Shown here one piece after another: positions 2,613 to 55,986 of a stretch of DNA of 64,000 nt. The stretch is from an uncultured Microbacterium sp. (GTDB taxonomy: Bacteria; Actinomycetota; Actinomycetes; Actinomycetales; Microbacteriaceae), in the NCBI GenBank assembly GCA_913774665.1, contig CAJYHN010000013.1, positions 1 to 64,000 on the forward strand, given 5' to 3'. The notes beneath the pieces are model-generated. The model was not told where the DNA came from. It saw nothing but the letters and a program-made list of their open reading frames with translations, and did no database searches. The translations under genes were made by a program, and so were the position numbers. The stretch's first letter is position 1. Each line of letters starts with the position of its first letter.

Positions 2613-4382
2613 TTACTTGACCTCTCCGGCCGCAGAGTCGACCACGGGAGCCTCAGGGGCGTCCTTCGCAGGTCCCACACCGACCGGGATGCCGGCTTCG
2701 GGGTGGTTCAGGTCGAAGGCGGGACGCTCGCTGCGGATACGCGGGATCGAGGTGAAGTTGTGGCGCGGCGGCGGGCACGAGGTGGCCCACTCCAGCGAGG
2801 CGCCGTAACCCCACGGGTCGTCGACCGTGACGCGCGGAGCCTTGCGGGCGGTGATCCACACGTTCAGGAGGAACGGGATCATCGAGGCGCCGAGGATCAT
2901 CGAGCCCACGGTGGACAGCTGGTTCTCCCAGGTCCATCCGTCCGCGGCGGCGTAGTCGGCGTAGCGGCGGACCATGCCGTCGACACCCAGCCAGTGCTGA
3001 ATGAGGAAGGTCATGTGGAAGCCGATGAACAGCATCCAGAAATGCACCATGCCGAGACGTTCGTTGAGCATCTTGCCGGTCCACTTGGGCCACCAGAAGT
3101 AGAAGCCGGCGAACATCGCGAACACCACGGTGCCGAACACGACGTAGTGGAAGTGCGCCACGACGAAGTACGAGTCGGACAGGTGGAAGTCGAGCGGGGG
3201 CGACGCCAGGATGACGCCGGTCAGACCACCGAACACGAACGACACGAGGAAGCCGAGGGCGAAGACCATGGGGGTCTCGAAGGTGACCGAGCCTCGCCAG
3301 AGCGTTCCGATCCAGTTGAAGATCTTCACGCCCGTCGGCACAGCGATCAGCATCGTCATGAGGGCGAAGAAGGGAAGCAGCACACCGCCGGTGACGTACA
3401 TGTGGTGCGCCCACACCGCGACCGAGAGGGCCGCGATGGCGATGGTCGCGTACACGAGGGTCTTGTAGCCGAAGATCGGCTTACGGCTGAACACCGGGAA
3501 GATCTCGGACACGATGCCGAAGAACGGCAGCGCGATGATGTACACCTCGGGGTGACCGAAGAACCAGAAGAGGTGCTGCCAGAGGAGCACTCCGCCGTTC
3601 TCGGGGCTGTAGATGTGCGCACCGAGCACGCGGTCGGCGGCGGCGGCGAAGATCGCGGCGGCCAGCACGGGGAACGCGAGAAGGATCAGGATGCTCGTGA
3701 TGAGCGTGTTCCAGGAGAAGATCGGCATCCGCCACATCGTCATACCGGGGGCGCGCATCGTGAGCACCGTGGTGATGAAGTTGACCGCACCGAGGATCGT
3801 TCCGAAACCACTGATGCCGAGACCGAGCATCCAGAGGTTTCCGCCGACGCCCGGCGAGAAGCTGGCGTTGGCGAGCGGCTGATACGCGAACCAGCCGAAG
3901 CCGGCCGCACCCTGCGGGGTGAGGAAGCCCGAGACGGCGATGGTGGAGCCGAAGAGGAACAGCCAGAACGCGAAGGCGTTCAGACGCGGGAACGCCACGT
4001 CGGGCGCCCCGATCTGCAGCGGCAGCAGCGCGTTGGCGAAGCCGGCGAACAGCGGCGTCGCGAACATGAGCAGCATGATCGTGCCGTGCATGGTGAAGAG
4101 CTGGTTGTACTGCTCTTTGGTCGGGATGATCTGCATGCCCGGCTCGAACAGCTCGGCGCGGATGATCAGCGCCATGACGCCACCGAGCATGAAGAACATG
4201 ACGGAGGCGATCAGGTACATGTACCCGATGGTCTTGTGGTCGGTGGAGGTGATCCACTTGACGACCAGGTTGCCCTTCTGCTCGACACGCGTGGTGCTCA
4301 GCAGTGCGGCTTGACGCGGCGGGAGAGTCGTCGGGCGCGAAGGGCCCGTCTCCTGGAGCGGAAGCGTCGTGGCCATGATCAC
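2613..4382 (-). CDS. ctaD: Cytochrome c oxidase subunit I
   Basis: Catalytic subunit of the aa3-type terminal oxidase (589 residues), which reduces oxygen at a haem a3-CuB centre and pumps protons. About twelve membrane helices are visible. Family landmarks include the N-terminal [12 protein letters not shown] segment, HPEVYI in the CuB region, the WAHHMYVTG His-His pair and AHFHYVVFG with the haem ligands. A hydrophilic Pro-rich C-terminal tail of about 60 residues follows the last helix. The start overlaps the ctaC stop by 4 bp (ATGA), indicating translational coupling. Subunit III (ctaE) and the bc1 genes are not in this window. Confidence 0.97.
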
Positions 4383-35789: not shown

Positions 35790-36134
35790 TCAGGCGAGGG
35801 TCGCGGCGACCCGGCGGACTTCGCTCTTGCGCCCGGCGAGAAGCGCCTCGATGGGCGCGAGACCGATGGTGTCTTCCGGCGTCAACAGCCAGTCGATGGT
35901 CTCGTCGGGGTCGAATCCGGCGTCGTGCAGGACGATGATCGTGCCGCGCAGAGACGGCAGCGGGCGCCCGTCGACGAGGAAGACCGCCGGCACCTTGAAC
36001 ACGCCGTCGCGGCGCGAGCCGACGAGGTAGTGCTCGTCGAAGAGGCGGCGCACGCGCCCGAGCGACTCGTCGAGCATCTCGACCAGGTCGGGAATGGTCA
36101 GCCACGCGGTCTCGTAACGGGAAGTCTCGCTCAC
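35790..36134 (-). CDS. Rv2175c-like DNA-binding protein
   Basis: A 114-residue winged-helix-like protein of the Rv2175c family. In Mycobacterium tuberculosis Rv2175c is a DNA-binding substrate of the kinase PknL, whose gene is adjacent (established); here a PASTA kinase gene lies 1.2 kb away with one gene between. Visible features are the N-terminal LTIPDLVEMLDESLGRVRRLF helix-turn-helix and the VDGRPLPSLRGTI wing. It is transcribed away from the LysM and kinase genes. The GTG start has GAAGGG close by. Confidence 0.88.
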   Translation of the reverse strand: MSETSRYETAWLTIPDLVEMLDESLGRVRRLFDEHYLVGSRRDGVFKVPAVFLVDGRPLPSLRGTIIVLHDAGFDPDETIDWLLTPEDTIGLAPIEALLAGRKSEVRRVAATLA

Positions 36135-36184
36135 CCCTTCATCTTCTCATTGCCACCGACGCGACCCGTCCCCGGTCGCCTTCT

Positions 36185-36220
36185 TCACTCCCGTCACACT
36201 CGTCACAGGAGTCACTTTCG
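36185..36220 (+). promoter_or_regulatory. Four 9-bp direct repeats (MtrA-like boxes) upstream of LysM gene
   Basis: TCACTCCCG, TCACACTCG, TCACAGGAG and TCACTTTCG follow one another, so TCAC recurs exactly every 9 bp at 36185, 36194, 36203 and 36212; the last three are GTCAC. They end right before TTGACA at 36221. MtrA in mycobacteria binds GTCACAnnn-type 9-mer direct repeats and controls wall-hydrolase genes. Confidence 0.6.
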
Positions 36221-36249
36221 TTGACATCCGCCCCGAGCCATGCCACCGT
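36221..36249 (+). promoter_or_regulatory. Promoter candidate for the LysM gene
   Basis: A consensus -35 TTGACA (36221-36226), 17 bp, then a poor -10 CACCGT (36244-36249). A strong -35 with a weak -10 fits a promoter that needs an activator, and the repeats lie directly upstream. Confidence 0.45.
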
Positions 36250-36282: not shown

Positions 36283-37269
36283 ATGAGACGACTCACGCTG
36301 TCCCCCCTGCCCTCGCGACGTCGCACCGCAGCCATCTGGCCCGCCGCCGTGGCCGGCACGATCGCCCTCTCCCTCACCGCCGAGCACGCCGCGCACGCCG
36401 CACCCCCCGAACCAGCGCTCACCTCTCTCCCGCCCGCTCCCCGGAGTCTCGGGATGCCAGTGCTCGCCGCCGTCACCGCGCCCACCACCTACACGGTCGA
36501 GCCGGGCGACACGGTGTGGGACATCGCCCGCGCGCATGGTCTCGACACCGCCGCGGTCCTCGCGGCCAACGGCTTGGCATCCGACGCCGTCATCCGCCCC
36601 GGCCAGGTCCTCGCCCTCACGCCGGCGGCCGCGGCCGCTCCCCCGGCTCCCCCCGCCCCTGAGGCCGCGCCCCGCACGCACGAGGTGCGCCCCGGCGACA
36701 CCGTCTCGGCGATCGCCCGGGCCAACGGCGTCTCGCTCGAGGCCGTGCTGAGCGCGAACGGGCTCACGCGTGCCTCGATCATCTACCCCGGCGACGTCCT
36801 GCGCATCCCGGCGGATTCCCCCGCTCCTGCCCCCGCCGCCGTCGCCCCCGCCACGGCTCCGGGCCTCGACGCCGAGCAGTCCGACAACGCGCGCCTGATC
36901 ATCCGCATCGGACGGGAGCTGGGCGTCTCGGATCGCGGCATCCTGATCGCCCTCGGCACCGCGATGCAGGAATCGTGGCTGCGCAACCTCGAGTGGGGCG
37001 ACCGCGATTCGCTGGGCCTCTTCCAGCAGCGACCCAGTACCGGGTGGGGCACTGCGGAGCAGATCCTCGATCGCGAACGGTCGACGCGCGTGTTCTACGG
37101 CGGCGCGGCCGACCCCAACGGCACCGCCACCCGCGGACTCCTCGACATCCCCGGCTGGGACCAGCTCCCCTACGCCGATGCCGCCCAGGCCGTGCAGATC
37201 TCGGCCTACCCCGACCGGTACGCCCAGTGGGAGCAGCCGGCCACCACGTGGCTCGCCGTTCTGGGGTGA
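36283..37269 (+). CDS. Secreted LysM protein with lysozyme-fold C-terminal domain
   Basis: A 328-residue exported protein. It has a signal peptide (about residues 1-40, cleavage near AHA-A), two LysM peptidoglycan-binding modules (about 69-112 and 132-175), a Pro/Ala linker and a C-terminal domain (about 198-328) with DRGILIALGTAMQESWLRNL and DSLGLFQQRPSTGWGTAEQI. This resembles actinobacterial transglycosylase-like domains; Glu230 is the likely catalytic acid. It is probably a wall hydrolase or binder. It lies between the Rv2175c-like gene and the PASTA kinase gene. Confidence 0.85.
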   Translation: MRRLTLSPLPSRRRTAAIWPAAVAGTIALSLTAEHAAHAAPPEPALTSLPPAPRSLGMPVLAAVTAPTTYTVEPGDTVWDIARAHGLDTAAVLAANGLASDAVIRPGQVLALTPAAAAAPPAPPAPEAAPRTHEVRPGDTVSAIARANGVSLEAVLSANGLTRASIIYPGDVLRIPADSPAPAPAAVAPATAPGLDAEQSDNARLIIRIGRELGVSDRGILIALGTAMQESWLRNLEWGDRDSLGLFQQRPSTGWGTAEQILDRERSTRVFYGGAADPNGTATRGLLDIPGWDQLPYADAAQAVQISAYPDRYAQWEQPATTWLAVLG

Positions 37270-37323: not shown

Positions 37324-39276
37324 GTGAGCACGAGTCAGCAGGCAGACCCGCTGATCGGCCGTCTCGTCGACGGCCGATACCGGGTTCGCGCGCGCATCGC
37401 GCGCGGCGGCATGGCGACCGTGTACGTCGCGACCGACCTGCGCCTCGAGCGCCGGGTCGCGCTGAAGGTCATGCACGGCCACCTCAGCGACGACACGGTG
37501 TTCCAGAGTCGGTTCATCCAAGAGGCCCGCTCGGCTGCGCGCCTGAGCGATCCGCACGTGGTGAACGTGTTCGACCAGGGCCAGGACGGCGAGATGGCCT
37601 ACCTGGTCATGGAGTACCTCCCGGGCATCACGCTGCGCGAGCTGCTGCGCGAGCACCGGCGCCTCACGGTGGATCAGACCCTCACGATCATGGATGCCAT
37701 CCTCTCGGGGCTCGCCGCCGCACACCGGGCCGGTATCGTCCACCGCGACGTGAAGCCCGAGAACGTCCTGCTCGCCGAGGACGGCCGCATCAAGATCGGC
37801 GACTTCGGCCTCGCCCGCGCGACGACGGCGAACACCGCGAGCGGGGCGCAGCTCATGGGCACGATCGCCTACCTCGCCCCCGAGCTCGTCACGCGCGGCA
37901 CCGCCGACGCCCGCAGCGACATCTATTCGCTCGGGATCATGCTCTACGAGATGCTCGTCGGCGAGCAGCCCTACAAGGGCGAGCAGCCGATGCAGATCGC
38001 CTACCAGCACGCCACCGACTCGGTGCCCCGCCCGAGCGCGAAGAACCCCGGCGTCCCGGAGCAGCTCGACGAACTCGTGCTCTGGTCGACCGAACGAGAG
38101 CCGGGCGACCGCCCGATCGATGCCGCCGCGATGCTCGAGCGCCTCCGCGCGATCGAGAAAGAGCTCGGTCTCGCCCCCCAGGTCGCGCGCGCCGTGGCCG
38201 TGGGCACGACGAGCCCCGCGACGGCCGCCGAGTCGCGCGAGCTCACGAAGGTGCTGCCGCAGACGGCATCCCTCCCCTCCGCCACCATCGACGAGCCCGA
38301 CAACGCGGCACGACTGCGCACCCGCACCCGGCGACGGACGACAAGGGGGGCGTGGCTCCTCGTGCTCGTGCTGCTGCTCGCCGGCGGAGCCGGGTTCACG
38401 GGCTGGTACTTCGGCTCCGGTCCGGGTTCGCTCGTCGCGGTCCCCGACGTGTCGGGCCGCAGCTTCGCGGACGCCGAGGCCCTGCTCACGCAGCAGCAGC
38501 TGCAGGCTCAGGCGCAAGAGGTCAACGACCGCGAGATCCCCTCCGGCACGACCGTCGGCTCCGACCCCGCGCCCGGCGAGCGTCTCGACAAAGAGACGGT
38601 GGTGACCGTCTTCGTCTCGATCGGGCCCGCCACCCACCAGATCCCCGCCCTCGCGGGCAAGAGCGCCGACGAGGTGCGCGCGATCCTCGAGCAGGCCTTC
38701 GTGGGGGTCGCCGGCGACCCCGAGCGGCAGTTCGCCGACCCGGCCGACGGCACGGTGCTGGGCGCCTCGGTGATCCCCCGCTCCGGCGGCAACGCCATCG
38801 ACTGCACCCAGGGCTGCACGGTGTACGAGGGCGACGCCGCCTCGCTCGTCGTCTCGCTCGGCCCCATCCCCGATGTCACGGGCGACTCGCGTTCGCAGGC
38901 CGAGCGCGCCCTCGACGGCGTCGGGCTCAAGACCGCGGTGACCGAGGAGTACAGCAATTCCGTGGCATCCGGCAACGTGATCGCCATGGGCCAGCGCGAC
39001 GGCGGCGGCAACTGGCGCCCCGGCGACACCGTGCCCCTGCGGGTGTCGATCGGCCCGAAGCCCGTCGAGATCCCCGGCAACGTCGTGGGGATGTCGATCC
39101 GGGATGCCGTGAAGACCCTCGAAGCGCTCGGCTTCGAGGTGAACGCGGGCATCGACGACGGCACCCTGCCCCTCGGGTTCAAGTACTGGGACATCTACAA
39201 GGTGCGCGCCACGAACCCCAAGGCCGGCACGACGGCCCCGCAGGGCTCGACCATCACGCTGACGCCGACGCTCTAG
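37324..39276 (+). CDS. Serine/threonine protein kinase with four PASTA domains (PknL-like)
   Basis: A 650-residue transmembrane kinase. The kinase domain (about residues 14-275) has the Gly-rich loop ARGGMATVYVA, Lys48, HRDVKPEN (140-147) and DFGLA (160-164); the linker is Arg/Thr-rich; a membrane helix spans about 343-363; four extracellular PASTA repeats run from 371 to the end and bind muropeptides or lipid II in this family. Order of neighbours (prenyl synthase, Rv2175c-like, DAHP synthase) matches mycobacterial pknL. It likely phosphorylates wall and division proteins. Confidence 0.94.
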   Translation: MSTSQQADPLIGRLVDGRYRVRARIARGGMATVYVATDLRLERRVALKVMHGHLSDDTVFQSRFIQEARSAARLSDPHVVNVFDQGQDGEMAYLVMEYLPGITLRELLREHRRLTVDQTLTIMDAILSGLAAAHRAGIVHRDVKPENVLLAEDGRIKIGDFGLARATTANTASGAQLMGTIAYLAPELVTRGTADARSDIYSLGIMLYEMLVGEQPYKGEQPMQIAYQHATDSVPRPSAKNPGVPEQLDELVLWSTEREPGDRPIDAAAMLERLRAIEKELGLAPQVARAVAVGTTSPATAAESRELTKVLPQTASLPSATIDEPDNAARLRTRTRRRTTRGAWLLVLVLLLAGGAGFTGWYFGSGPGSLVAVPDVSGRSFADAEALLTQQQLQAQAQEVNDREIPSGTTVGSDPAPGERLDKETVVTVFVSIGPATHQIPALAGKSADEVRAILEQAFVGVAGDPERQFADPADGTVLGASVIPRSGGNAIDCTQGCTVYEGDAASLVVSLGPIPDVTGDSRSQAERALDGVGLKTAVTEEYSNSVASGNVIAMGQRDGGGNWRPGDTVPLRVSIGPKPVEIPGNVVGMSIRDAVKTLEALGFEVNAGIDDGTLPLGFKYWDIYKVRATNPKAGTTAPQGSTITLTPTL

Positions 39277-54588: not shown

Positions 54589-55986
54589 ATGCCTCATTAC
54601 GATCTGGTCATTCTTGGTGCGGGTCCCGGCGGGTACGTCGCCGCCGTCCGCGGCGCACAGCTCGGACTGTCGGTCGCGGTCATCGAAGAGAAGTACTGGG
54701 GCGGTGTGTGCCTCAACGTGGGCTGCATCCCCTCCAAGGCCCTCCTGCGCAACGCCGACCTCGCGCACACCTTCCACGCCAAGGCCGACCTGTTCGGCAT
54801 CTCGGGCGAGGTCACCTTCGACTTCGGCAAGGCGTTCGACCGCTCGCGCAGCGTCGCCGCCGGCCACGTCAAGGGCATCCACTACCTGATGAAGAAGAAC
54901 AAGGTCACCGAGTACGAGGGCCGCGGTCACTTCGCCGACGACCACACGATCACCGTGACCAAGACCGACGGCTCCACGGAGCAGGTCACCTTCGACAACG
55001 TCATCATCGCCACCGGCTCCACCGTGCGACTGCTCCCCGGCGTCACCCTCAGCGAGAACGTCGTCACCTACGAAGAGCAGATCCTCACCCGCGAGCTGCC
55101 CTCCTCGATCGTCATCGTCGGCGCCGGCGCCATCGGCATGGAATTCGCCTACGTCATGACCAACTACGGCGTGAAGGTCACGATCATCGAGTTCCTCGAC
55201 CGGGCCCTGCCCAACGAGGACGCCGAGGTGTCCAAGGAGATCCAGAAGCAGTACAAGGGCTACGGCGTCGACATCCTCACCTCCACCAAGGTCGACTCCG
55301 TCACCGACCACGGCGACAAGGTCACCGTCGCCTACACGGCCAAGGACGGCTCGACCGGCTCGATCGACGCCGACCGCGTGCTGATGTCGATCGGCTTCGC
55401 CCCCAAGGTCGACGGCTTCGGTCTCGAGAACACCGGCGTGAAGCTCACCGAGCGCGGCGCGATCGACATCGACGACCACATGCGCACCAACGTCCCCCAC
55501 ATCTACGCCATCGGCGATGTCACGGCCAAGCTGCAGCTGGCCCACGTCGCCGAAGCGCAGGGCGTCGTGGCCGCCGAGACCATCGGCAACGCAGAGACCC
55601 AGACCCTCGGCGACTACCGCAACATGCCCCGCGCCACCTTCTGCAACCCGCAGGTCGCCTCGTTCGGCCTCACCGAGCAGCAGGCGCGCGACGCCGGCCA
55701 CGACATCAAGGTCGCCAAGTTCCCCTTCTCGGCCAACGGCAAGGCGAACGGCCTCGGCGAGCCCGTCGGCTTCGTCAAGCTCGTCGCCGACGCCGAGACC
55801 CTCGAACTCATCGGCGGCCACCTCATCGGCCCCGACGTGTCCGAACTCCTGCCCGAGCTCACCCTCGCGCAGAAGTGGGACCTCACCGCTCTCGAGGCCG
55901 CGCGCAACGTTCACACCCACCCGACGCTGTCGGAGGGCCTGCAGGAGGCCTTCCACGGCCTCACGGGTCACATGATCAACCTCTGA
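54589..55986 (+). CDS. lpd: Dihydrolipoyl dehydrogenase
   Basis: Flavoprotein E3 subunit of pyruvate and 2-oxoglutarate dehydrogenase complexes; reoxidises dihydrolipoamide with NAD. The 465-residue protein has the FAD motif [17 protein letters not shown] (residues 10-26), redox Cys41 and Cys46 in [16 protein letters not shown], the NAD motif [14 protein letters not shown], and the C-terminal HTHPTLSE active-site His. GarA-like proteins that regulate 2-oxoglutarate dehydrogenase are encoded just upstream on the other strand. Confidence 0.97.

Follow-up and report, generated by a model that had tools for sequence, protein, structure and literature searches.

We consider it likely that the array of 9-bp direct repeats in front of a LysM wall-hydrolase-type gene, located in the 64-kb stretch of DNA analyzed here (the window), is an operator whose candidate reader is a BldC-like winged-helix protein of 63 residues, which would also control its own gene and probably an HU gene. 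The operator probably combines a known way of binding with a new code, read by a protein different from MtrA, the regulator proposed in the initial annotation. The features concerned are given below in window coordinates, except for the last one, which lies on another contig (C5) of the same genome; the first three were read from the window sequence.

36184..36219, + strand: array of four 9-bp direct repeats, TTCACTCCC GTCACACTC GTCACAGGA GTCACTTTC
36220..36228, + strand: fifth position of the register, GTTGACATC, with the -35 hexamer TTGACA (36221-36226)
36244..36249, + strand: weak -10-like hexamer, CACCGT, with a 17-bp spacing to the -35
36283..37269, + strand: LysM wall-hydrolase-type gene for a 328-aa protein with two stretches of LysM (Pfam LysM, E 9.1e-29)
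35790..36134, - strand: divergent gene of an Rv2175c-like winged-helix protein (Pfam Rv2175c_C, E 1.9e-19; Rv2175c_wHTH, E 1.1e-9; PDB 2kfs, E 1.1e-9)
37324..39276, + strand: gene of a PASTA-domain Ser/Thr kinase, downstream of the LysM gene (Pfam Pkinase and PASTA; NF033483, 539.5 bits against a cut-off of 450)
C5:105253-105441, + strand: gene of the 63-residue lone winged-helix protein ("excisionase family", BldC-like; weak NF033787 match)

The four-copy repeat reported initially proved genuine. TCAC starts at 36185, 36194, 36203, and 36212, in exact 9-bp steps and as GTCAC in three of the four units; four copies of TCAC at this period occur only once on both strands of the window and in 0/100 dinucleotide shuffles, and GTCAC three times at 9 bp is found at one place in the 3.58-Mb genome, with 0 for the reversed-pattern control. 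The array also abuts TTGACA, as had been claimed; this -35 adjoins the last unit and shares its 9-bp register, and the -10, CACCGT, is weak. The span was given less precisely: the array begins one base earlier, at 36184, and ends at 36219, and the end formerly placed at 36249 takes in the -35 and -10 beyond the array. The Pfam matches bear out the setting that had been described, a regulatory-looking direct repeat ahead of a LysM wall-hydrolase-type gene with a PASTA kinase gene nearby. Judged by eye, the N-terminus of the LysM protein is of the secreted type; its C-terminal part is without a Pfam match, so a hydrolase activity is presumed. On the divergent side, many genus relatives (L038, L039, L045) carry, by eye, a conserved GATAGT about six bases ahead of the start codon of the Rv2175c-like gene, resembling a leaderless message, and the window has GAGAAG there (region 36135-36160).

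Of 148 genomes searched for the LysM protein, the window's own among them, 140 gave some match. From the best matches, 70 of the 89 genus genomes, own included, formed the genus set (30 + 40 loci), and the 19 left out had weaker or unfetched matches (17), had no match (one), or were not chosen. The Rv2175c-like gene adjoins the LysM gene in 69 of these 70 loci, the remaining one lying at a contig edge; L063, at a contig edge, was dropped from the genus counts, giving 69 loci. Spacing served as the independent measure of conservation. Across the 69 loci, own included, T.AC pairs at lag 9 number 70 vs. 2.8 ± 1.9 in dinucleotide shuffles, followed by 36 at lag 18 and 13 at lag 27, so that the peaks fall at 9, 18, and 27 bp. 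Lag 11 is also above chance for T.AC (14 vs. 2.5 ± 1.5), and GT.AC pairs number 38 at lag 9 and one at lag 11. TTGAC could be used as an anchor in 69/69 loci, with the array units in register with the -35, and A at +24, G at +27, and T at +28 from TTGAC, in the -10 region, are conserved in 91–94% of the 69 loci. The consensus of the array unit is GTCACATCC, or GTCACATnn, and the genus consensus contains more GT-A-C letters at +9 and about +19.

A three-unit 9-bp profile was trained solely on the LysM promoters of the genus, and an array was called at a score of at least 12. Within those promoters this score is reached at offset 9 in 69/69 loci, at offset 10 in 43, at offset 11 in 14, and at offset 8 in 4, counts that are circular because the profile was built from the same loci; the matches at offset 10 are explained by the additional GT-A-C letters of the genus consensus noted above. 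The LysM array scores 26.9, the top of the window. The pair GTCACNNNNGTCAC occurs 26 times in the window's genome vs. 2 for the control, and among the 26 pairs a score of at least 12 is attained only by two from the LysM array and one elsewhere (L035). The latter, an array-like place at C13:196461, has a profile score of 27.5 and adjoins a hairpin, and no HU gene lies behind it. The next-best profile match in the window, away from the array at positions 55958-55984, scores 16.9.

The 9-bp period and the variable copy number agree with a BldC-type binder. BldC is described as a lone MerR-like winged helix that places one protomer on each 9-bp direct repeat, head-to-tail and in variable number, with the consensus AATTnnnnC (PMC5859096). 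The BldC operators of Streptomyces (whiI, smeA-sffA) resemble the LysM array in the 9-bp direct repeats and the variable copy number but differ from it in consensus, which is GTCACATnn in the LysM array. There is also a likeness in targets: the HU-type gene hupS of Streptomyces is a BldC target (PMC6428758), and in genus relatives of the window's genome similar arrays precede HU genes (see below). True BldC was ruled out as the binder, as no protein of the genome exceeds the NF033787 cut-off of 77 bits and the best reaches 24.7. The 63-residue protein is the better of the two weak matches to the BldC model in the genome. Its PDB matches up to E 1 are phage Gp37 (4j2n, E 0.0019) and BldC (6ama, E 0.0028; 6amk, E 0.0033). 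The AlphaFold model (mean pLDDT 86.4) predicts a lone winged helix with helices at 12-19, 23-31, and 48-56, strands at 38-40 and 43-47, and no dimerization domain. Among 29 members, all selected by a sequence motif, the recognition region shows little or no variation. A match to the protein was found in 57/59 genus genomes; in the class, 112/118 genomes have some match, and in 93/118 it is at E 1e-16 or better.

The 63-residue protein may correspond to Rv0500A of Mycobacterium tuberculosis, and a gene of the KKRRKRM/KKKHRK type, a neighbor of Rv0500A, was found in 26/28 class loci of the 63-residue protein. In the excerpt consulted, Rv0500A is reported to be a repressor that binds the rv2390c promoter directly, and this excerpt contains no binding motif (PMC6375644).

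The promoter of the protein's own gene carries repeats of the same period. In the window's genome, ATCACATTC GTCACAGTG GGCCCATAG GTTTACAGC run as 9-bp repeats into the -35 with a profile score of 16.6, TTTACA being assigned as the -35 and TAGAGT as the -10. The LysM-trained profile was applied to the own-promoter loci of the best matches in the genus (31), family (30), and class (28). With three units at offset 9, a score of at least 12 is reached in 20/31, 17/30, and 8/28 loci, respectively, the family set of 30 including 10 loci that first lacked a start match; 11/31, 13/30, and 20/28 stay under the threshold. Mononucleotide shuffles of these promoters reach it in about 1% of cases (8/620, 6/600, and 3/560), and offsets 7, 8, 10, 11, and 12 give 0–2 each. 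Among 170-bp background stretches of other DNA, 3/521 and 0/253 reach 12, as do 3/376 stretches of the window, including the LysM array itself. The two-unit test gave 18/31, 17/30, and 5/28 at offset 9 for genus, family, and class, together with 9/31 in the genus at offset 10 and 6/30 in the family at offset 11. At the class level, CAC spacings number 9 at lag 9, 11 at lag 11, and 8 at lag 7, with about 1.6 expected for each, and show no clear peak at 9. In several other genera the own-promoter repeats lie, by eye, beyond the -10, which suggests that the position moved while the repeat stayed.

In the family, 109 loci were found through the Rv2175c-like gene (29, one of them of the window's own genus, plus 80); the family consensus left out 12 loci without a usable anchor (12 of the first 29). 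The search for the 63-residue protein covered the first 80 of the 108 family genomes outside the genus, taken in listing order, and the sequences of the first 28 of these 80 had been viewed before the protein test. It is present in 60/80 genomes (best E 7.2e-23 or lower) and absent from 20/80 (E 1.6e-7 or higher, or no match). Where the LysM gene is adjacent (66 genomes), the array is found in 47/55 genomes with the protein and in 0/11 without it, phylogenetic independence being demonstrated for hardly any of these events; by genus majority the figures are 24/29 vs. 0/7. The eight of the 55 genomes that have the protein and score below 12 belong to genera g113, g114 (three), g46, g103, g73, and g53. 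Mononucleotide shuffles of the family loci reach 12 in 14/1090 cases. A tree of one short protein yields one independent pair on supported branches and six on the best tree, for which a sign test is powerless; in the supported pair the array follows the protein in 0.9 of the pairings and the opposite never occurs. The co-occurrence backs the 63-residue protein as the reader, as supporting evidence and not as proof.

Control of the hydrolase gene by phosphorylated MtrA dimers on GTCAC half-sites, close to what the initial annotation had envisaged, appears unlikely. Part of that proposal is sound: the half-site letters GTnAC agree with the MtrA motif (GTCAC three times in the array), the genome does contain mtrA (C13:424862-425518; 383.8 bits vs. 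a cut-off of 300), and its product matches PDB 2gwr at E 3e-94, with the stretch ADTRLVNVHVQRLRAK identical and a DNA-binding domain closely resembling that of M. tuberculosis MtrA. The targets of MtrA are also wall-related, since ripA and rpfB are wall hydrolases. Their promoters are listed as MtrA targets (PMC6265350). The discrepancy lies in the period, published as 11 bp for three genera: M. tuberculosis has 9 nt separated by 2 nt (PMC6265350), C. glutamicum 8+3 (PMC3353115), and Streptomyces 6+5 (PMC13189361). The premise of the initial annotation had treated the mycobacterial motif, which is 9 nt long, as if 9 were its period, and because the spacing is 9 bp in the window and the genus, MtrA was dropped as the first choice. 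The 7-bp CACGCCG/CACGAGG boxes of a further MtrA description (PMC2945938) do not fit the LysM array either. An 11-bp signal does exist, in the lag-11 excess of T.AC in the genus, in 10 occurrences of GTCACN6GTCAC in the window's genome (control 0), and in an 11-bp GTTnC-N6-rTwAA element just upstream of the array in 31/79 LysM-adjacent loci of the family from which the 63-residue protein is not known to be missing. However, the main period of the genus loci is 9, where GTNAC-N6-GTNAC is found in 2/69 loci vs. 31/69 for GTNAC-N4-GTNAC and the GTTnC-type element in 0/69, and by eye no such array is present in the 400-base region preceding mtrA in the window's genome. The spacing of the GTTnC-N6-rTwAA element (e.g., L124, L127, L129) agrees with published MtrA repeats, and the element occurs in 0/11 loci lacking the 63-residue protein, 0/19 kinase-adjacent loci, and 0/1090 shuffles. 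A search for GTNAC three times at 11 bp in 59 genus genomes returned 36 rows, corresponding to 18 places since this palindromic pattern matches both strands, vs. 4 control places; none is in the window's genome, and a tandem repeat in G003 is among them.

The divergently encoded Rv2175c-like protein is quite improbable as the reader. It could bind the intergenic array and be linked to the PASTA kinase in the way that connects Rv2175c with PknL: it falls into the same broad class of winged helices, its gene adjoins the LysM gene in 69 of the 70 genus loci, and Rv2175c is a DNA-binding PknL substrate (PMC4601284). The likeness to the Rv2175c/PknL pair extends to the neighborhood, which holds both an Rv2175c-like gene and a PASTA kinase gene, but at the window locus the LysM gene lies between them, and the array goes with the LysM gene. 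All 80 tested family genomes have the Rv2175c-like gene, by selection, yet 33/80 score below 12, and where this gene directly faces the kinase gene and the LysM gene is missing, the array is found in 0/14 genomes (5 with the 63-residue protein and 9 without). The Rv2175c-like protein was rejected, the presence of the array not being tied to its gene. It is very improbable that some other regulator reads the repeats; the co-occurrence comparison covered the 63-residue protein and the Rv2175c-like gene only, which leaves room for one, but such a regulator would need to account both for the arrays at the 63-residue protein's own promoter and for the split of the LysM-adjacent genomes. The chance that no regulator is involved, and that accident or a bias of promoter sequence produced the array, is negligible: Tandem Repeats Finder at score 30 did not list the array, but the genus spacing is far above shuffles, the window shuffles gave none, and the own-promoter counts stand well apart from the background.

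With the 63-residue protein as the preferred reader, we infer a mechanism by analogy with BldC. One protomer would occupy each 9-bp unit (GTCACATnn), and the protomers may stack head-to-tail in the manner of BldC on its 9-bp operator repeats. A filament growing from the upstream units would abut the -35 and, judging from the genus consensus, run over it, and protomers stacked there could hinder RNA polymerase. Because the filament would abut and cover the -35, repression of the LysM hydrolase gene is, on balance, the more plausible sign of regulation, although activation is possible because the -10 is weak. The protein would act through the same repeats on its own gene and probably also control an HU gene. 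A wider reading has slightly less than even odds: in it, the winged-helix protein of about 60 residues found in most actinobacteria is a filament-forming global regulator that recognizes GTCACATnn every 9 bp and sets wall hydrolysis, its own level, and the nucleoid protein HU, the length of the array serving as a tuning knob. If the proposal is true, a very small and highly conserved regulator of actinobacteria would gain a DNA code and an initial regulon, binding in the BldC manner, head-to-tail along repeats of 9 bp, would be shown to operate on another sequence in bacteria lacking BldC, and wall hydrolysis would be linked to HU.

The initial annotation had raised the possibility that the motif also precedes other genes. 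This holds in that similar 9-bp arrays stand ahead of other genes in the genus; in the window's genome GTCAC three times at 9 bp occurs just once. The pattern TNACW three times at 9 bp gave 50 matches in 33/59 genus genomes vs. 17 for the reversed pattern, and the 22/50 whose loci were not already known LysM promoters were examined. HU genes lie downstream of 9/22 of these arrays in genus relatives, and 5/22 (L158, L161, L162, L169, L175) continue into the start codon of a gene whose product is secreted. The rest comprise one in the vicinity of a gene judged pilin-like by eye, one LysM promoter, and six without a common feature. The HU arrays take one orientation in L146, L154, L157, L163, L164, and L170 and the opposite one in L148, L149, and L173. 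The five secreted proteins have a KEQ-type motif and, by eye, look hydrolase-like.

A pattern scan of named genomes returned at least 119 stretches, and 31 of those listed are in Actinomycetota; among these 31, an HU gene lies within 1.2 kb in three and a LysM gene in two, one of which (L485) has the Rv2175c-like gene as well. The other 88 listed stretches have no LysM, HU, or Rv2175c match and one weak match to the 63-residue protein. Since the matches listed span many phyla, no inference on distribution was drawn from them. Further runs were noted by eye. At L457 (Terrabacter), around position 3893, a longer run of 9-bp GTCACACCC repeats lies ahead of an apparently secreted protein, and in Corynebacterium jeikeium (L482, 7915-7946) four units of 9 bp lie about 230 bp ahead of the gene of a TypA-like GTPase. 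At L126 (G285), about 11 consecutive 9-bp units, more AT-rich and of the AACAT type, stand ahead of the LysM promoter.
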